In this document: one piece after another, positions 56,438 to 63,933 of the stretch
Numbering within the stretch: position 1 is the first letter of the stretch
Layout: each line of letters starts with the position of its first letter
Source of the DNA: Verrucomicrobiota bacterium
GTDB taxonomy: Bacteria > Verrucomicrobiota > Verrucomicrobiia > Verrucomicrobiales > Verrucomicrobiaceae
Direction: 5' to 3'
Assembly: GCA_025360015.1 (NCBI GenBank)
Contig: JANYCZ010000032.1
Span: 62,001 to 126,000, forward strand
DNA length: 64,000 nucleotides
The notes under the pieces: model-generated
Seen by the model: the letters and a program-made list of their open reading frames with translations, nothing else
Told to the model about the DNA's origin: nothing
The model's database searches: none
Program-made: the position numbers and the translations under genes

Positions 56438-57547
56438 ATGTCCTCTTCCCAAGATCTCGGCCAGCTCCTCCTCATGGGCGTCCCCGGCGCCGAACTCACC
56501 CCTGAAACCGCCGCCCGCCTCAAAAAACTTCAGCCCGGCGGTTTCATTTTATTTGGCCGCAACATTCAGACCCCGGAGCAGCTCCGCAAACTCATCGATG
56601 ACCTGCGCGACATTTCAGATGTCGAGCCCTTCATCACCATTGATCAGGAAGGTGGACGCGTCTCGCGTCTCCGCCTCATTGGTGAAGAGCCGCCGAATGC
56701 ACAGGCGCTGCGTGACAAAGGAGATCCCGCGCTGATCAAACGCCACGGCAAGATCACCGGCCAGATTTTGCGCCAGTTCGGTTTCAATCTCGATCTCTGC
56801 CCCGTGCTCGACATCTCCTATGATGATGCAGCGGACAACTCACTCAAAGGCCGCACCTATGGCCGCGATCCACAGCAGGTCATCGACAACGCGGGCATCT
56901 TCAATCGCGCGATGCGTGCCGAAGGCATCCTGAGCTGCGGCAAACACTTCCCCGGTTACGGTCCTGCCGACTGTGATCCGCATGAGTTCCTCCCCGTCAT
57001 CACCAAGAGCCGCGAAGAAATGGAACGCAGCGAACTTCTCCCCTACTCCGCTCTGCTGCCAGAGCTCGACAGCGTCATGACCTGCCACAGCAACTACACA
57101 GCGTATGATCCGGATCGCGGTCGCTGGCCTGCCAGCTTGAGCCACAACATCGTGACGAAGCTTCTGCGTCATCAATACGGCTTCGACGGCCTCGCCATGA
57201 CCGATGACCTCGACATGGGGGCCATCCTCAATGAAGTTACCTTTGAGCAGGCCATTCAAGAAGCCGTGCGCGCCGGCAATGACCTCGTCATGATCTGCCA
57301 CCGCGTGGAAATGGTGGAGCTCGCCCGCCAGCACCTCGAAGGCGTCGAAGCACCCGCGCTGCATGATGCGCTGATGCGCATCGAGAAAACCAAGAAGCGC
57401 CTCGTGAAGCCGGACAAATTCGATCTCGACCGCTTCGCCGCCATCAACCGCGACATCTGGCAGCTCCGCGTCGACACCCTCGGCGAAGAAGGTGCCAGAA
57501 ATCTCAGCGTCGAAGACGGCAAACGCTCGCCGGTGGAGTTGTATTGA
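56438..57547 (+). CDS. nagZ: GH3 beta-N-acetylhexosaminidase (NagZ-like)
   Basis: This enzyme removes N-acetylglucosamine from cell-wall fragments during peptidoglycan recycling. The 369-residue cytoplasmic GH3 domain shows FITIDQEGGRVSRLR near residue 67, the CGKHFPGYGPADCDPHEFLP motif (Lys-His plus loop His) and the nucleophile Asp in LAMTDDLDMGAI. The length matches single-domain NagZ. The catalytic loop reads GYGPADCDPH rather than the usual GHGDTxxDSH, a deviation that may alter specificity, so the exact substrate is less certain. Confidence 0.82.
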   Translation: MSSSQDLGQLLLMGVPGAELTPETAARLKKLQPGGFILFGRNIQTPEQLRKLIDDLRDISDVEPFITIDQEGGRVSRLRLIGEEPPNAQALRDKGDPALIKRHGKITGQILRQFGFNLDLCPVLDISYDDAADNSLKGRTYGRDPQQVIDNAGIFNRAMRAEGILSCGKHFPGYGPADCDPHEFLPVITKSREEMERSELLPYSALLPELDSVMTCHSNYTAYDPDRGRWPASLSHNIVTKLLRHQYGFDGLAMTDDLDMGAILNEVTFEQAIQEAVRAGNDLVMICHRVEMVELARQHLEGVEAPALHDALMRIEKTKKRLVKPDKFDLDRFAAINRDIWQLRVDTLGEEGARNLSVEDGKRSPVELY

Positions 57548-57629: not shown

Positions 57630-58400
57630 CTACAAACTCTTATCAATCAACAACGACGCCGAACGTCGCGGATTCGGATGATACCCATTCATCGCCGCAC
57701 GGATGCGCTTCGCGCGATCCACACAAGCCTCAGCTTTCTGGAAATCTCCTGAAGCTTTATACACAGCCCCGAGATTGATGAACGTCTGCGACAAATCAGC
57801 CGGGTCCATCTGCCCTTCATTCAAATTCTGCCGGATCGAAAGCGCCCGCTCGTGCATGGCCTGGGCGCGGTCCACGTCCATGCTGCTGTAGTAGAGAACG
57901 CCGAGGTTGTTGTACACCGAGGCGACGCGTGAACTCTGCTCACCATCAATGCGCTGAAAGGTCTCCAGCGCATCGCAGTAGTAGCCCTCAGCCTTTTCAA
58001 ACTGCCGCAGTTGTTTGAAAATCATCGCCAGGTTGTTCTTGATCGTGGCCACCTTGTCACTGTCATCCAAGCCATTGTTAGCGCTGATGTTCAGCGCCAG
58101 TTCATAGAACTCGGCCGCCTTGTCCATGCGCCCCCAGCGATCATACAGATGGGCGAGGAGCGAGTAGATGCCTGTCAGCAGATCCGGGTCCTGCTTGCGC
58201 AGTTCCTGGGCCCGAAAGAGCGCCTCACGGTAAAGCGACTCGGCCTTGCGAAAATCCCCCTCCTTCTGCCGCAGATCCGCCAGCACGCTGATCTGCTCCA
58301 CCAACGCACCGACGCGCACCGGATCATGGTATGCAAGCCTCCGCGCCTCCTCGACGCTGCGGGAGGCGGAGGCAATTTGGCGCTCCAAGGCAGTATCCAC
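57630..58400 (-). CDS. bklc: Bacterial kinesin light chain (TPR protein) of the tubulin operon
   Basis: The 256-residue TPR protein has about five tetratricopeptide repeats resembling those of kinesin light chains, for example AESLYREALFRAQEL, AAEFYELALNIS, AEGYYCDALETFQRI and AQAMHERALSIRQNL. In Prosthecobacter, bklc is cotranscribed with btubA and btubB, and its product binds bacterial microtubules. Here it follows btubB by 50 nt on the same strand. The GTG start at 58400 is uncertain: no clear ribosome-binding site precedes it, and the frame stays open upstream into the end of btubB (PLKRPSDLFSSTN), so a non-ATG start further up is possible. Confidence 0.88.
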   Translation of the reverse strand: MDTALERQIASASRSVEEARRLAYHDPVRVGALVEQISVLADLRQKEGDFRKAESLYREALFRAQELRKQDPDLLTGIYSLLAHLYDRWGRMDKAAEFYELALNISANNGLDDSDKVATIKNNLAMIFKQLRQFEKAEGYYCDALETFQRIDGEQSSRVASVYNNLGVLYYSSMDVDRAQAMHERALSIRQNLNEGQMDPADLSQTFINLGAVYKASGDFQKAEACVDRAKRIRAAMNGYHPNPRRSASLLIDKSL

Positions 58401-58427
58401 GTTGGTTGAAGAGAATAAGTCGCTGGG

Positions 58428-58439
58428 CCGCTTAAGCGG
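58428..58439. repeat. 12-bp palindrome in the btubB-bklc spacer
   Basis: CCGCTTAAGCGG is a perfect palindrome within the 50-nt gap between the btubB stop and the bklc GTG. It could form a small intercistronic hairpin, or simply be coding if bklc starts further upstream. Confidence 0.5.
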
Positions 58440-58450
58440 TAAAATCGGGG

Positions 58451-59728
58451 CTAGCTCGCGTCGCGGTAGGATTGAGCGAGGTTGACGATGGTATTGCGCG
58501 CATGCGCCATCATTTCGCGCGAGACGCCGTTGTTCTCATACCAGTGCGTGTAAGCATGGTTGTCGAACATGATGTCAAAATTGGTGATGAGGCGCTCAAA
58601 CACGGCGGCAATGCCGGTGTGATTGACCAGGGCCAGACCGCTGGAGGCAAAGCCTTCCGGGGCGGTTTCAGCCACACCCATTTTGATGCCGGTGGGGACG
58701 TAGCTGGCGAAGTTCAGGCTCTTGCGGATAGCCGCCATGTTTTCCTCGACTTCCTTGGCTTTCACATCACCCCGGAACAGGGCGCAGGCAGCGAGATACA
58801 CGCCATTGGTCCAGTCGATGGCCGCCGTGAAATTGTCCTGCGAGAAGGTCTCACGGGCAACGTCAGGGAAGTTGATGCGGACCTGCCCTTCCTGACCGGG
58901 AGCACGCATGGGGGCAAACGAAGCGGTGAGGAAATGGTTGCCAGGAAACGGCACCAGATTGGTCACATATTCGCTCAAATCGGTGTTCAGCTTGCCAGGG
59001 AAACGGAGGGACGCCGTCACCGAACTCATGATGAGAGCGATGATGTGGTTGAGGTCCATGTAGTTCGGGCTGCGGTGCAGCTTCGACTTGGCGATGCGGA
59101 ACAACGCCTCGTTGTCGAGCAGCACAGCGGCATCCGCATTGTCCAAAATACGCTGCAGCGTGAGAATGGCGTTGTAGGGCTCCACTGCGGAATCGGAAAT
59201 CAACGGCGAAGGAACGACCGAGAACGTAAAGATGCGCTTCTTCGGATAGGCCTGCCGCAGACGCTCAAGGATAAGCGAACCCAGACCTGAGCCGGAGCCA
59301 CCACCGATGGAGTGAGTGATCAGGAACCCCTGCAGAGACTTGGTTTTTTCGACGGCAGCGTCGATCACATTCATGATCTGGTCGATGATGCGCTCACCTT
59401 CGACGTTGTAACCACGTGCCCAGTTGTTGGCGGCACCCGGGATTTTGCGGATGATGCAGCTCTCGTCAAACAGCTGCGCCATGTCTCCGCCTTCGATACG
59501 AGCGATGACACCGGGTTCGAGATCGATCAGTACTGCGCGGGGGATGTACTTCCCATCACGCACCTTGTGGAAGAAGACTTCCAGGTTGGCATTCGTGGCG
59601 GCCGACGTGTTGCCCTCCTTCGGCGTGCCGTTTTCGGTCAGGCCATGTTCACGAAGTACCAGCCGCCAGTAACGGTCGGCGATTTGATTGCCACATTGTC
59701 CGACATGAATGCTCAGAATCTCTCTCAC
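58451..59728 (-). CDS. btubB: Bacterial tubulin BtubB
   Basis: This GTPase copolymerises with BtubA into bacterial microtubules. The 425-residue protein carries the tubulin signature GGGSGSG at residues 142-148, an N-terminal GQCGNQIADRYW and a PYNAILTLQRILDNAD helix. The T7 loop has Glu253 in LSEYVTNLVP, the position of the alpha-tubulin catalytic Glu254. The C-terminus has FDNHAYTHWYENNGVSREMM. The loop before the last strands is short, as in beta-tubulin. It starts with GTG at 59728 behind a clear GGAGG ribosome-binding site. It is 43 nt downstream of btubA. Confidence 0.97.
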   Translation of the reverse strand: MREILSIHVGQCGNQIADRYWRLVLREHGLTENGTPKEGNTSAATNANLEVFFHKVRDGKYIPRAVLIDLEPGVIARIEGGDMAQLFDESCIIRKIPGAANNWARGYNVEGERIIDQIMNVIDAAVEKTKSLQGFLITHSIGGGSGSGLGSLILERLRQAYPKKRIFTFSVVPSPLISDSAVEPYNAILTLQRILDNADAAVLLDNEALFRIAKSKLHRSPNYMDLNHIIALIMSSVTASLRFPGKLNTDLSEYVTNLVPFPGNHFLTASFAPMRAPGQEGQVRINFPDVARETFSQDNFTAAIDWTNGVYLAACALFRGDVKAKEVEENMAAIRKSLNFASYVPTGIKMGVAETAPEGFASSGLALVNHTGIAAVFERLITNFDIMFDNHAYTHWYENNGVSREMMAHARNTIVNLAQSYRDAS

Positions 59729-59771
59729 GGGTGTTCCTCCAAACTTTTGTTATCTACCTGATTGACTGTAT

Positions 59772-61190
59772 TTAGGCGCGACGACGATCAACGAGGTCAC
59801 GCAGACTCATGCCGCTGCCACGGCTGTCATCCGCACTGGCGCTGGTGCGCGGGATGTCGGACGCACTGTCCTGCACCTTGGCCTTGGCTCCGCTTTCTTC
59901 AGCCACCTGATAGCTTTGAATGAGTTCCTGAGCGGAAGCACGGAGAGCATTGATCTGCTCCTCAGACATGCCCTCGTTGAGGTACCAGTTGGCGAATGCC
60001 TTGCGGTGCCAGAGCTTGTCAAAGTTGTGGCAGATCCGGTCCAGCACGCGGGCGATTTCCGTGTTGTTGGCCAGCAGCACCATGCTCTTGCGGTGGGAAA
60101 TGCCGGGTTGCTCCACGTAGCCGATCTTAAAGGCGGTGGGAATCCAGTAGGTCAGCGGCAGTTGCTCGCGCATGGCGGCTAGGGCGGCGTCCGCCAGCGG
60201 CTTGTCGTCCATGATGCCACGGTAAAGGACAGCCGTGCTCAGGAAGCGGCCTTCCATCGGGGAGCAGGCGGCAAACACGGAGCTGTTGTCAAACAAGCTG
60301 CGGATCATGTCCTCGACACCCATTTCTTCAAACTTGCTGCGGTCAGGCGGCGTCAGCGGTGCAAAGGCGCACATGAGGAAATGCAGCGAAGGCTGCGGCA
60401 CCAGATTCGTTAGCAGCTCGCGCAGGCTGATTTCCACCGTGAGGAATCCGCTGAAACGCATGGAGGCGGTTAGCCCTGCCAGCGCTTCGGTGATGAGCAG
60501 GTTCAGATCGTCCACCGTCGGGCTCTCGATGTTCCATTTGCGGTGGGCGAGTTCGAACAGCGCTTCATTGTCGAAAATAAGACAGGCGTCCGCCGAACGG
60601 CGCAGTGTGTTGAGCGTGAACACCGTGTTGTAAGGCTCGGTCACCACCGAGGAAACCTGCGGGGACGGCAGCACCGCACAGCTCAGGATGGGGAACTCGG
60701 GATACTTCTCTTTGACAGTCTCAATAAGCAGAGCGCCAAAGCCCGAACCAGAACCGCCACCAGTGGCATGCAGCACGAGAATACCGCCGACATTGTCGCA
60801 CTTGTCGATTTCGGCATCGAGGCGGCCCATCACTTCTGGCAGCACCTCGCGTCCGGCACCCAGATAACCCACGGCGAAATTACCGCCGGCACCTTCCGTG
60901 CGGCTGATGAGATTGCCGGGATTGAACAGCGATCCGGAGGTGGCCTTGATGTTGTCGATCACACTTGGCTCCAGATCCACCATCACCGCACGCGGCACAT
61001 AGCTGCCGGAGGTTGATTCACCCAGCTTGGTGAAAAACGCGCTCCAGTTGCCGCGAGGAGCCTGCCCTGGGGCGGTCTGACCTGTGAGAGGGTCAATTCC
61101 GTGCTCCTGACAGATGGTTTTCCAGAAAGACGCGGCAATCTGATTGCCTGCCTGACCGATTGAAATAACGATAGTGTTGTTGACCTTCAT
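59772..61190 (-). CDS. btubA: Bacterial tubulin BtubA
   Basis: The partner GTPase of BtubB in bacterial microtubules. The 472-residue protein has GQAGNQIAASFW at the N-terminus, the signature GGGSGSG at 144-150, EPYNTVFTLNTLRRSAD, and T7-loop Glu258 in SLRELLTNLVP. The C-terminal helix includes RKAFANWYLNEGMSEEQ. It then continues into a tail of about 45 residues rich in Ser, Asp and Ala, ending LRDLVDRRRA, unlike the acidic tails of eukaryotic tubulins. A strong AGGAGA site precedes the ATG at 61190. It is the first tubulin gene of the operon. Confidence 0.97.
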   Translation of the reverse strand: MKVNNTIVISIGQAGNQIAASFWKTICQEHGIDPLTGQTAPGQAPRGNWSAFFTKLGESTSGSYVPRAVMVDLEPSVIDNIKATSGSLFNPGNLISRTEGAGGNFAVGYLGAGREVLPEVMGRLDAEIDKCDNVGGILVLHATGGGSGSGFGALLIETVKEKYPEFPILSCAVLPSPQVSSVVTEPYNTVFTLNTLRRSADACLIFDNEALFELAHRKWNIESPTVDDLNLLITEALAGLTASMRFSGFLTVEISLRELLTNLVPQPSLHFLMCAFAPLTPPDRSKFEEMGVEDMIRSLFDNSSVFAACSPMEGRFLSTAVLYRGIMDDKPLADAALAAMREQLPLTYWIPTAFKIGYVEQPGISHRKSMVLLANNTEIARVLDRICHNFDKLWHRKAFANWYLNEGMSEEQINALRASAQELIQSYQVAEESGAKAKVQDSASDIPRTSASADDSRGSGMSLRDLVDRRRA

Positions 61191-61455: not shown

Positions 61456-63933
61456 TCACGGTGTTTCTTTTCGTTCCGGCGGCATCGGGGATGCGGTGGA
61501 CATGATCGGCATCTGCCCGGTTCTGTTTTCCACCTGTCCCTGTTTCATGCGGTCGATCTCCTCTTTGGAAGGAACGATGGCACGGCGAATGGTGACGGGG
61601 TCCTTCTCCGGCAGCTTGCCGACAGTGGCCGGAGATACGGGCATGACCAGCGGCTGCGGCTTGCTGGCAGCGGGTGTCACCACAACAGCGGTGGTCACCG
61701 CAGGATCTGCCGCCGCGGGCTTCACGGCATTTTCCTGGGACGGCGTATTCTTCGTCACAGCAATCGTGGGATTGGGCACTGGCAGTGTGGGCGGTGCCAG
61801 CTTGACGGGTGGATTGGGCTGAACGGTCGCAACGACGACAGCAGCGGGCTGTGGTTTGGCAGCTTCCACTTGCGCGGGGCCCGGCTTCTCCTGAACAACC
61901 GTCTTGACCTGCGGTGGCGATCCATTTTGGCCACTGGCAGGTCCTTCAGAATCCGAGGACGAAACTGCGGGCTCCGCCACCGGTTTTGATTCATTCCGGC
62001 CTCCCAGGAAAATCCATGCCCCAATGCCCAGCAGCACCGCTGCAGCCGCAGCCATCGCCCCCCAGGGAGCACTGCGCTTTTGCTGATGCAATGGATTAAA
62101 ATCATGCGTCTTGATGCCGCGCTTGATGGGTGAAATCGGTTCTCCCTCAAGAGCTCCGGCATCCTCAGCATTCGCGTTCCAGTCATCATCAAAATCAGAA
62201 ACCGAACCGACGCTTTCCATCTCCTCTTTCGCCACAGTGTTGCCTCGCAGGCGTGTGGCCAGATCCACCGTTGGCGCGGACAGCAGCCCCTCGAACTTGT
62301 CGATGAAATCACCCGGGCTGGGGGTCTTGCCCGCACGGCGCACCAATTCGAGGCATTCCCGCACATACGCGGCGGCGGCCTCAGGAATGGATTCTGGGAA
62401 CTGCGGCACTCCGCCGCTCTGACGCTCCCCTGTCAGCAAATAGCCTGCCAGCGCCACAAAGGAGCGATGCCGGAAATCACGGTTCTGCAGATGCTCTTCC
62501 TGCGTCTGCCCCTCCATGAGGTCCATGTCCACCAGCAGCGGCTCATACAGGCTGCGCATGGTCATATGCGGACGCAGCTTCACCACAAACGTAGGCCACG
62601 CATCGAGACGCTTCTGCATCAGCCTCTCAAGTTCACGCGACAGCAAGGGGCCGCTTTTGCCCACCCGCAGCAGAATGTTGGAAGGATGCAAATCCACCCG
62701 CTGCACGCCGCACTCCACCGCCTGGTCCAGCCCGGCGCGGATCTGGCGCATCAGCACCGTCACTTCAGCAGGGTTCAATGTAATGCGCTCAGCCATGAGA
62801 CGGCTGAGAGTAAAGCCCGGCTCGCGCTCTTCAGTCAGGAACGTCCAGTCCGGGCTTTCCCACAGGCTCAGAGAGCGCAGGATGTTCGGGTGGCGTTCAG
62901 GATTGAACCGCCACATTTGCAAAGGCACCGCTTCATAGCGCGATTTGTCCACGATCCGCGAGGGTGGCAGCAGGTGCACCATGACTGGCTGCCCCAGCTT
63001 CGTGTTCGTCGCGGGAATGGAAAAAGGATAACGCCGGGCGTGATCCGCATCCTCCACCCGGAAACGTGTTCCCATGATGGTTTCCACCGGCACATCTTCC
63101 AGAAGCAGTTCCTGCAGCTGCGACTGCGGCAGCAGCGAGGAGCTCACCACCAGATGTTTGCGGAAATTACGCGCCTTGATGTTGCTCGACAGGGCGCTGA
63201 ACGCCTCGCGCACGTCATCACGCAGCTTTTCGATGGATGCCGGAGCATTGTCGGGATCAGTGAGAGCGGCTCTGACCGCAGTGCGCAGCCCCATCGGCAG
63301 TTGCGTCAATGCCGGGAAGCGGTCAGGGTTTTCACCTGCATAAGGCTGCCCGGTGAGCAGCAGAAAGATCAATCGGCAGCCTTCCACCACCAGCCGTGCG
63401 CCGCTTTGCACTTCCGAACCTGCATCCATTTGGGAGAGGCCGTAGTCAAACACACGGAGCTGCAGAAAGGTGTCCTCCAGAGTCGTGACCAGCACGCGGT
63501 CCAGATGCATGCGCGAGACCAGACGTTGATAGCCTTGCAGTTGCAGCAAATCATCCAGCAGTTGATACACCATCGCCAGCGCTGTCGCAGGGGCCACCGC
63601 ACCGCGTCTTTTGGTGTAATGTTCGACGAACTCACCGTCGTTGAGATTACTGGTGTAATAGACCATCCCTTGATCTTCACCCACTTCCAAAATGCGCATG
63701 AAGGCATGCCCGCGGATTTCTGAAGCTTGCCGCGCACGGTCAAAGGCCGATCTCTTCATCGCCGCATCCAGGGTGCTTCCTCCTCGCAGCACATGCAGTT
63801 CCACCAGACGGTGGATCCGATTGTCAAAGGCCAGAAAAACCACCTCGTCTTTGGAACGCACCAGCTCCACCGGAGCGCCACCAGTTCGGTGCGCCACGGA
63901 TAGACTGCCAAATTGCTGGAGCTCTTCAATCAT
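61456..63933 (-). CDS. Tandem pseudokinase-like membrane protein upstream of tubulin operon
   Basis: The 825-residue protein has two serine/threonine-kinase-like domains (about 1-250 and 285-550), a membrane helix at 624-644 (AMAAAAAVLLGIGAWIFLGG) and a Pro/Ala/Val-rich tail of about 180 residues. In domain 1 the beta3 lysine place reads VELHVL, the HRD loop is SRMHLDRVLV, and only DYG survives of DFG. In domain 2, VDLHPSNILL keeps Asp and Asn of the catalytic loop, but the beta3 lysine place reads MVHLL and the DFG place LRP. Both domains are thus probably inactive scaffolds. Same strand as btubA, 265 nt upstream; functional link inferred. Confidence 0.8.
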   Translation of the reverse strand: MIEELQQFGSLSVAHRTGGAPVELVRSKDEVVFLAFDNRIHRLVELHVLRGGSTLDAAMKRSAFDRARQASEIRGHAFMRILEVGEDQGMVYYTSNLNDGEFVEHYTKRRGAVAPATALAMVYQLLDDLLQLQGYQRLVSRMHLDRVLVTTLEDTFLQLRVFDYGLSQMDAGSEVQSGARLVVEGCRLIFLLLTGQPYAGENPDRFPALTQLPMGLRTAVRAALTDPDNAPASIEKLRDDVREAFSALSSNIKARNFRKHLVVSSSLLPQSQLQELLLEDVPVETIMGTRFRVEDADHARRYPFSIPATNTKLGQPVMVHLLPPSRIVDKSRYEAVPLQMWRFNPERHPNILRSLSLWESPDWTFLTEEREPGFTLSRLMAERITLNPAEVTVLMRQIRAGLDQAVECGVQRVDLHPSNILLRVGKSGPLLSRELERLMQKRLDAWPTFVVKLRPHMTMRSLYEPLLVDMDLMEGQTQEEHLQNRDFRHRSFVALAGYLLTGERQSGGVPQFPESIPEAAAAYVRECLELVRRAGKTPSPGDFIDKFEGLLSAPTVDLATRLRGNTVAKEEMESVGSVSDFDDDWNANAEDAGALEGEPISPIKRGIKTHDFNPLHQQKRSAPWGAMAAAAAVLLGIGAWIFLGGRNESKPVAEPAVSSSDSEGPASGQNGSPPQVKTVVQEKPGPAQVEAAKPQPAAVVVATVQPNPPVKLAPPTLPVPNPTIAVTKNTPSQENAVKPAAADPAVTTAVVVTPAASKPQPLVMPVSPATVGKLPEKDPVTIRRAIVPSKEEIDRMKQGQVENRTGQMPIMSTASPMPPERKETP

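Follow-up and report, generated by a model that had tools for sequence, protein, structure and literature searches.

The window analysed here, 64,000 nucleotides from the 6.61-Mb draft genome of a Verrucomicrobiota bacterium (its contig 13, bases 62001-126000), carries what is, as judged from its sequence, a genuine, intact and canonical operon for bacterial mini-microtubules, btubA-btubB-bklc. Such tubes, built by some aquatic bacteria, are thinner than eukaryotic microtubules and are the simplest of their known relatives. This system is already known and the novelty of the locus itself is modest; more interesting are the comparative results, which rest on public genomes, many of them metagenome-assembled genomes (MAGs). 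We describe a gene upstream of btubA, termed Pkin, which offers a concrete candidate for a membrane anchor; a natural experiment in which genomes have lost their tubulins yet kept Bklc, some of them with Pkin; and a third tubulin linked to a helix-turn-helix (HTH) protein together with tubulin pairs of apparently eukaryotic type in two further bacterial groups, both of which bear on the spread of tubulins into bacteria. Prokaryotic tubulins have been stated to be restricted to Odinarchaeota and Prosthecobacter (PMC9871819), and this range has already been widened to Loki- and Heimdallarchaeia (PMC13394414). If the pairs found in Myxococcota and Methylococcaceae hold up, the stated range needs renewed widening.

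Identity and conservation of the operon

The three genes of the operon are as follows.

59772..61190, minus strand: btubA, bacterial tubulin A, 472 aa, ATG start; open reading frame (ORF) with Tubulin and Tubulin_C domains, 91.3% identical to 2bto_A
58451..59728, minus strand: btubB, bacterial tubulin B, 425 aa, GTG start; ORF with Tubulin and Tubulin_C domains, 87.7% identical to 2btq_B
57630..58400, minus strand: bklc, TPR protein ("bacterial kinesin light chain"), 256 aa, GTG start; ORF with TPR domains, 94.1% identical to 5o01_A

The genes are separated by 43 bp (btubA-btubB) and 50 bp (btubB-bklc). Plain ribosome-binding sites, AGGAGAG and GGAGG, precede btubA and btubB, respectively, and no obvious one was seen in the sequence upstream of the GTG start of bklc. 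BtubA and BtubB alike contain the GGGSGSG motif, and the domains listed above were assigned by Pfam. The best-matching solved structures were 2bto for BtubA (E 2.6e-291), 7quq and 2btq for BtubB (E 1.9e-251 and 4.6e-251) and 5o01 for Bklc (E 3.1e-158), the last match spanning the whole 256-aa protein. After BtubA and BtubB themselves, the next-best matches of the window tubulins were Asgard and eukaryotic tubulins.

The ratio of nonsynonymous to synonymous substitution rates (dN/dS) against the close relative at locus L087 was 0.020 for btubA, 0.026 for btubB and 0.024 for bklc at a dS of 0.54-0.80, and 0.06-0.14 against three more distant relatives. By these ratios all three genes are under strong purifying selection, and since dN/dS is about 0.02 at such a dS, the operon is not a chance likeness. 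The sequence-only reading of this stretch had proposed an intact operon of the microtubule kind, with two full-length GGGSGSG-bearing tubulin homologues, good ribosome-binding sites on both and a TPR protein resembling kinesin light chain as the third gene; our analysis bears this out, down to the exact ends of the three full-length frames.

Pkin, a kinase-like gene upstream of btubA

That reading, sound as to the identity of the operon, had overlooked a frequently conserved gene upstream of it.

61456..63933, minus strand: Pkin, 825 aa; kinase fold in two domains, then a putative transmembrane helix and a disordered tail; candidate member of the system

The AlphaFold2 model of Pkin (mean pLDDT 67.8, pTM 0.62) comprises two kinase-like domains, a helix and a disordered tail. 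Residues 4-246 adopt a predicted kinase fold with a Z score of 19.6 to 2fum_B (3.0 A over 221 residues), as do residues 282-557 with a Z score of 18.1 to 4eqm_D (3.5 A over 235 residues), and a hydrophobic helix lies near residues 624-644. The Pfam Pkinase model scored 29.2 bits, below its cut-off of 31.7. Canonical Hanks-type kinases are marked by the lysine of VAxK and the aspartates of HRD and DFG. In a 19-row alignment inspected by eye, these motifs look eroded in Pkin: the lysine position is occupied by His or Leu, the D and N of an HRD-like motif persist in domain 2 in most rows, and D-x-G persists in domain 1, with no clean DFG in domain 2. Because these positions look eroded, the alignment suggests that Pkin is a pseudokinase. 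It shares with bacterial Ser/Thr kinases of the PknB type the kinase fold, present twice in Pkin, but differs from them in its tandem domains and in that the canonical catalytic motifs are not conserved; the pseudokinase Rv3910 is among its Foldseek matches.

Gene order was counted in L082-L115, which are 34 of the 36 Verrucomicrobial btubA loci found by scanning named genomes. Because the scan searched with one peptide pattern only, its results are a minimum, and the window's own record may be absent from them. Five of the 34 loci (L085, L100, L111, L112 and L115) had too little upstream DNA to be counted for Pkin, L111 showing a cut Pkin. Pkin lies directly upstream of btubA in 20 of the 29 assessable loci, and bklc follows the tubulins in 32 of the 34, the remaining two being cut by contig ends. 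The count leaves out L119 and L120, in whose genomes (G002 and G053) Pkin adjoins btubA. Among the 68 genomes of the window's family, a Pkin match at E <= 1e-150 was found in 40 of the 42 that bear btub genes versus 5 of the 26 that do not; the match in G037 is to a paralogue, and a contig end interrupts its true gene; the incomplete genome G001 is without Pkin. Several genomes, e.g., G013, G014, G017, G018 and G046, hold Pkin at a locus other than btub. The transmembrane helix was present in all four f1 Pkins scanned. A second Pkin paralogue, 42-45% identical, occurs elsewhere in eight close relatives (G021:C38, G027:C68, G034:C76, G037:C443, G041:C18, G042:C173, G047:C103 and G059:C3).

Loss of tubulins with their partners kept

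Some relatives have lost one or both tubulin genes. In G042 (L043 5400-6970), btubA is gone and only fragments of btubB are left, flanked by the end of Pkin and by an intact bklc (91%). G048 keeps bklc (95-96%) and has neither a tubulin nor a close Pkin. In G100, a genome of the sister family f3, btubA is gone, and what remains of btubB forms an in-frame fusion with part of Pkin; bklc and the third tubulin described below persist there. In G055, a stop codon lies inside btubB. In three of the four g11 genomes, one of which is a single contig of 8,220,857 bp, relatives of Pkin (34%) and of Bklc (35-36%) are immediate neighbours and no tubulin is present.

L067 6357-9230: Pkin relative beside Bklc relative, without tubulin (g11)
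L068 6006-8889: the same
L069 5793-8673: the same

A reverse search with the Bklc relative of G067 returned the window's bklc first (E 1.6e-35), the next match being at 7.5e-5. Because Bklc, often with Pkin, persists in these tubulin-less relatives, their gene content suggests that Bklc and Pkin have a job beyond tubulin or else decay slowly.

Proposed mechanism and alternatives

BtubA and BtubB would pair into heterodimers that bind GTP; these would assemble head to tail, giving thin tubes with 4-5 protofilaments. Bklc would decorate the polymer and tether it to the inner membrane, near the cell stalk in the published species. BtubA/B tubes have been observed in cells, in E. coli and in vitro, and GTP-dependent assembly into tubes of 4-5 protofilaments is reported for the BtubA/B of relatives (PMC3232192). 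Bklc of P. vanneervenii binds lipid vesicles as well as the polymer and is able to link one to the other (PMC5372463). We extend polymerisation and tethering to the present locus because its products are 88-94% identical to the tested homologues and under strong purifying selection, and we think it very probable that the locus is a working mini-microtubule operon consisting of a BtubA/B tube and a Bklc tether. In its favour, a bklc-like match (E <= 1e-30) accompanies btubB in 42 of 42 family genomes versus 6 of 26 without btubB (Fisher p 2.8e-12).

Pkin, as a membrane protein, could act as a receptor that binds Bklc and thereby fixes the site at which the tube is attached. We propose its membership of the system because of its position upstream of btubA in most assessable loci, its co-occurrence with btub genes in the family and its adjacency to bklc without tubulins in g11; that it is the membrane receptor for Bklc is a tentative possibility. 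Several observations weigh against this reading. Pkin is absent directly upstream of btubA in 9 of the 29 assessable loci, G019 holds btubAB-bklc with no close Pkin, and four f3 genomes carry a Pkin relative with neither a tubulin nor bklc adjoining. In the f3 Pkin the helix was not seen, and in the g11 Pkins, which have a short hydrophobic stretch at the end, it was not clear. A gap of 265 bp separates Pkin from btubA, so a separate promoter is possible. The operon itself sits at different chromosomal places in three species (PMC3232192). Finally, the test for co-occurrence of bklc and btubB ignores ancestry.

We lean towards a simpler arrangement, in which the tubulins make the tubes, Bklc anchors them unaided by means of its amphipathic helix, and Pkin is a long-standing neighbour that does something else. 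It agrees with the ability of Bklc to bind vesicles on its own (PMC5372463) and with the loci and the genome just mentioned in which Pkin is missing. It would also account for Pkin in the btub-less genomes G015, G016, G029 and G054 and in f3 genomes without an adjoining bklc, and for the faster evolution of Pkin (dN/dS 0.09-0.23) than of btubAB. Harder to fit are the adjacency of Pkin and bklc that outlasts the tubulins in g11, the position of Pkin beside the remnant operon of G042 and the strong co-occurrence of Pkin and btub in the family, uncorrected for ancestry.

As for the operon being functional, it is very improbable that it is silent or decaying in this strain: decay does occur in the group (G042, G055 and G100, above), but the window has three full-length frames with dN/dS of about 0.02 against L087. 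That FtsZ/TubZ-type proteins, with which tubulins share the Tubulin/FtsZ GTPase domain, were mistaken for tubulins is scarcely conceivable, given that the best matches were BtubA/BtubB and then Asgard and eukaryotic tubulins, that a Tubulin_C domain is present, that the NCBIfam FtsZ model gave BtubB 24.1 bits (cut-off 295.2) and did not list BtubA at E <= 0.001, and that the genome encodes an ordinary FtsZ separately.

Distribution of the operon

A BtubB match at E <= 1e-10 was found in 43 of the 68 family genomes, with G042 among them as remnants only, so that btubB is retained in 42 of 68 genomes and 7 of 11 genera. Within the window's genus, btubB is kept in 34 of 48 genomes, absent in 13 and degraded in G042. 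The sequence-only reading had held that the locus identifies the organism, which is too strong: because 42 of the 68 family genomes, across 7 of the 11 genera, keep btubB and 14 of the 48 genomes of its own genus have no intact copy, the operon is, on these gene counts, a marker of the family rather than the genus and alone does not identify Prosthecobacter. Prosthecobacter MAGs, Brevifollis gellanilyticus and a MAG labelled Phragmitibacter are among the named genomes that carry it, and the sister family f3 holds a divergent form of the operon. In an order-wide draw, 48 of 386 genomes had a BtubB match at E <= 1e-20, namely the 43 family genomes and five others: three of f3, one of f4 (G092, through its third tubulin) and one eukaryotic contaminant. 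A draw across the phylum was searched with the alignment of third tubulins, which picks up BtubA and BtubB as well; 5 of 387 genomes matched, every one of them a member of the window's family that matched by its BtubA/B. Rarity in bacteria, likewise claimed beforehand, thus holds within the phylum.

The contaminant just counted is G349, whose tubulins (L038 and L039, on G349:C329 and G349:C295) we rejected as Verrucomicrobial and assigned to eukaryotic contamination of the MAG, because the contigs carry channel-, phosphatase- and splicing-factor-like genes (by eye) and the one included in the trees groups with eukaryotic alpha-tubulin. A 912-aa BtubA-BtubB fusion in G203 was also rejected; its frame crosses a run of N. 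G014 carries two complete btubA-btubB-bklc operons (L041 7118-10915 and L042 7035-10592), whose identities to the window's btubA, btubB and bklc are about 80, 82 and 65% and 89, 87 and 73%, respectively. The btubB of L086 (9459-10736) and the btubA of L113 (8001-9421) and L111 (926-2346) are each split into two frames, as pseudogenes or assembly errors. Short broken tubulin pieces were seen on a 5-kb contig of a Mollicutes MAG (L125).

Relation to known tubulin systems

The published Prosthecobacter operon (PDB 2bto, 2btq, 5o01, 5o09 and 7quq) has the same gene order, lengths and signatures as ours, at the identities listed above; for the three genes compared, the two differ in sequence divergence only, and in our locus a Pkin gene lies upstream. 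Asgard AtubA and AtubB (9f6t and others; PMC13394414) are likewise tandem heterodimeric tubulins, and AtubB matches BtubB at E 1.4e-123; unlike the window locus, the Heimdall pair in L117 has no Bklc or Pkin found alongside. Bklc resembles eukaryotic kinesin light chain in its TPR part only, whose domains match at E 1.8e-20 and 76.7 bits versus 527.4 bits for the Bklc match.

Two trees were built, both without gamma-, delta- and epsilon-tubulin, the Odin tubulin and AtubC. The first tubulin of G740, the partial third tubulin of G104 and the fused BtubB of G100 are in neither. Ten sequences of the first tree were dropped from the second, namely two FtsZ, five f4 third tubulins, both G734 tubulins and one G740 tubulin. 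Poly1_G734 is unplaced in the first tree, where long branches meet around the f4 third tubulins. BtubB grouped with Heimdall AtubB with support of 88/91 in the first tree and 89/65 in the second, and with both Asgard AtubB at 100/98 in the second. This grouping agrees with PMC13394414, which already included Verrucomicrobial BtubA/B sequences. BtubA was not tied to Heimdall AtubA in either tree.

A third tubulin beside or fused to an HTH domain

We named the third tubulin BtubX rather than BtubC because btubC is used for bklc in PMC9871819. In the f3 genomes G100 and G177, BtubX is about 25% identical to BtubB and 33% to BtubA, and it lies directly after a gene for an XRE-type HTH protein and before Pkin. 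The gene order of G177 is HTH, BtubX, Pkin and btubA, with btubB and bklc on another contig. In another family, f4, HTH and tubulin form a single 644-aa protein in G092, whose AlphaFold2 model (mean pLDDT 65.3, pTM 0.66) matches tubulins, and G086 is arranged likewise, although its HTH match falls below the Pfam cut-off; the G086 protein matches the HTH protein of G100 by BLAST at E 7e-33. G077, G083 and G101 encode relatives of 589-594 aa with eroded glycine motifs and no HTH found by Pfam, so that an HTH was matched in two of the five f4 BtubX tested (G092, and G086 below cut-off). The BtubX of G104 is partial.

L034 9535-11546: third tubulin, either adjacent to an XRE-type HTH or fused with it
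L035 3473-5648: the same
L040 6793-8727: the same
L064 6622-8556: the same

BtubX joined BtubA in both trees, at 91/99 in the first and at 100/100 in the second, which holds only two f3 BtubX. We found no account of Pkin or of an HTH-linked tubulin in the open-access literature searched.

Tubulin pairs in Myxococcota and Methylococcaceae

The scan of named genomes also returned tandem tubulin genes in three Myxococcota MAGs (L121, L123 and L124), on contigs of up to 1.55 Mb, and in one Methylococcaceae MAG (L116).

L116 7989-9305 and 9380-10702: genes resembling eukaryotic alpha- and beta-tubulin, between bacterial-looking genes on a 72-kb contig of Methylococcaceae MAG bin_45
L124 7965-10615: Myxococcota pair, one alpha-like and one beta-like
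L121 7959-10807: the same
L123 2418-5074: the same
L139 8201-10710: the same
L138 with G740:C8:50981-53425: the same

A pair is present in 5 of 29 genomes of the Myxococcota order of L124 and in 1 of 151 genomes of a draw of the family Methylococcaceae. A further match to the FtsZ/tubulin family on another contig of G728, G729, G730 (partial) and G731 was taken as FtsZ. At the three loci checked, the third-position GC content of the pairs resembles that of most neighbouring genes, and no Bklc or Pkin relative was found beside the Myxococcota and Methylococcaceae pairs. The Methylococcaceae genes joined eukaryotic alpha-tubulin (99/98 in the first tree, 97/95 in the second) and beta-tubulin (100/98 in both), and the Polyangia genes joined the alpha and beta clades except for one long-branch row. 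Because they join these clades, the pairs seem to be of eukaryotic type, independent of Btub. For the Polyangia pairs, chimeric assembly is unlikely, since a pair is present in five genomes; it may underlie that of the single Methylococcaceae MAG. No account of Myxococcota or Methylococcaceae tubulins was found in the open-access literature searched, and the main text of PMC13394414 has no mention of Myxococc-, Polyangi-, proteobacter-, Methylococc- or kinase.

Taken together, the comparisons could be drawn into one scheme, which we consider rather unlikely as a whole: a four-part membrane machine with Pkin as a pseudokinase receptor for Bklc, in which a durable Pkin-Bklc module sheds btubA/B, as in g11 and G042; a third tubulin derived from BtubA and turned DNA-binding through its XRE-type HTH in Verrucomicrobia; and independent uptake of eukaryote-type alpha/beta pairs by Myxococcota and a Methylococcaceae.

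Other features of the window

A scan of the window for tRNA genes found none. Beyond bklc and convergent with it lies a gene resembling GH3 beta-N-acetylhexosaminidases (56438-57547), which is kept beside the operon in close relatives.

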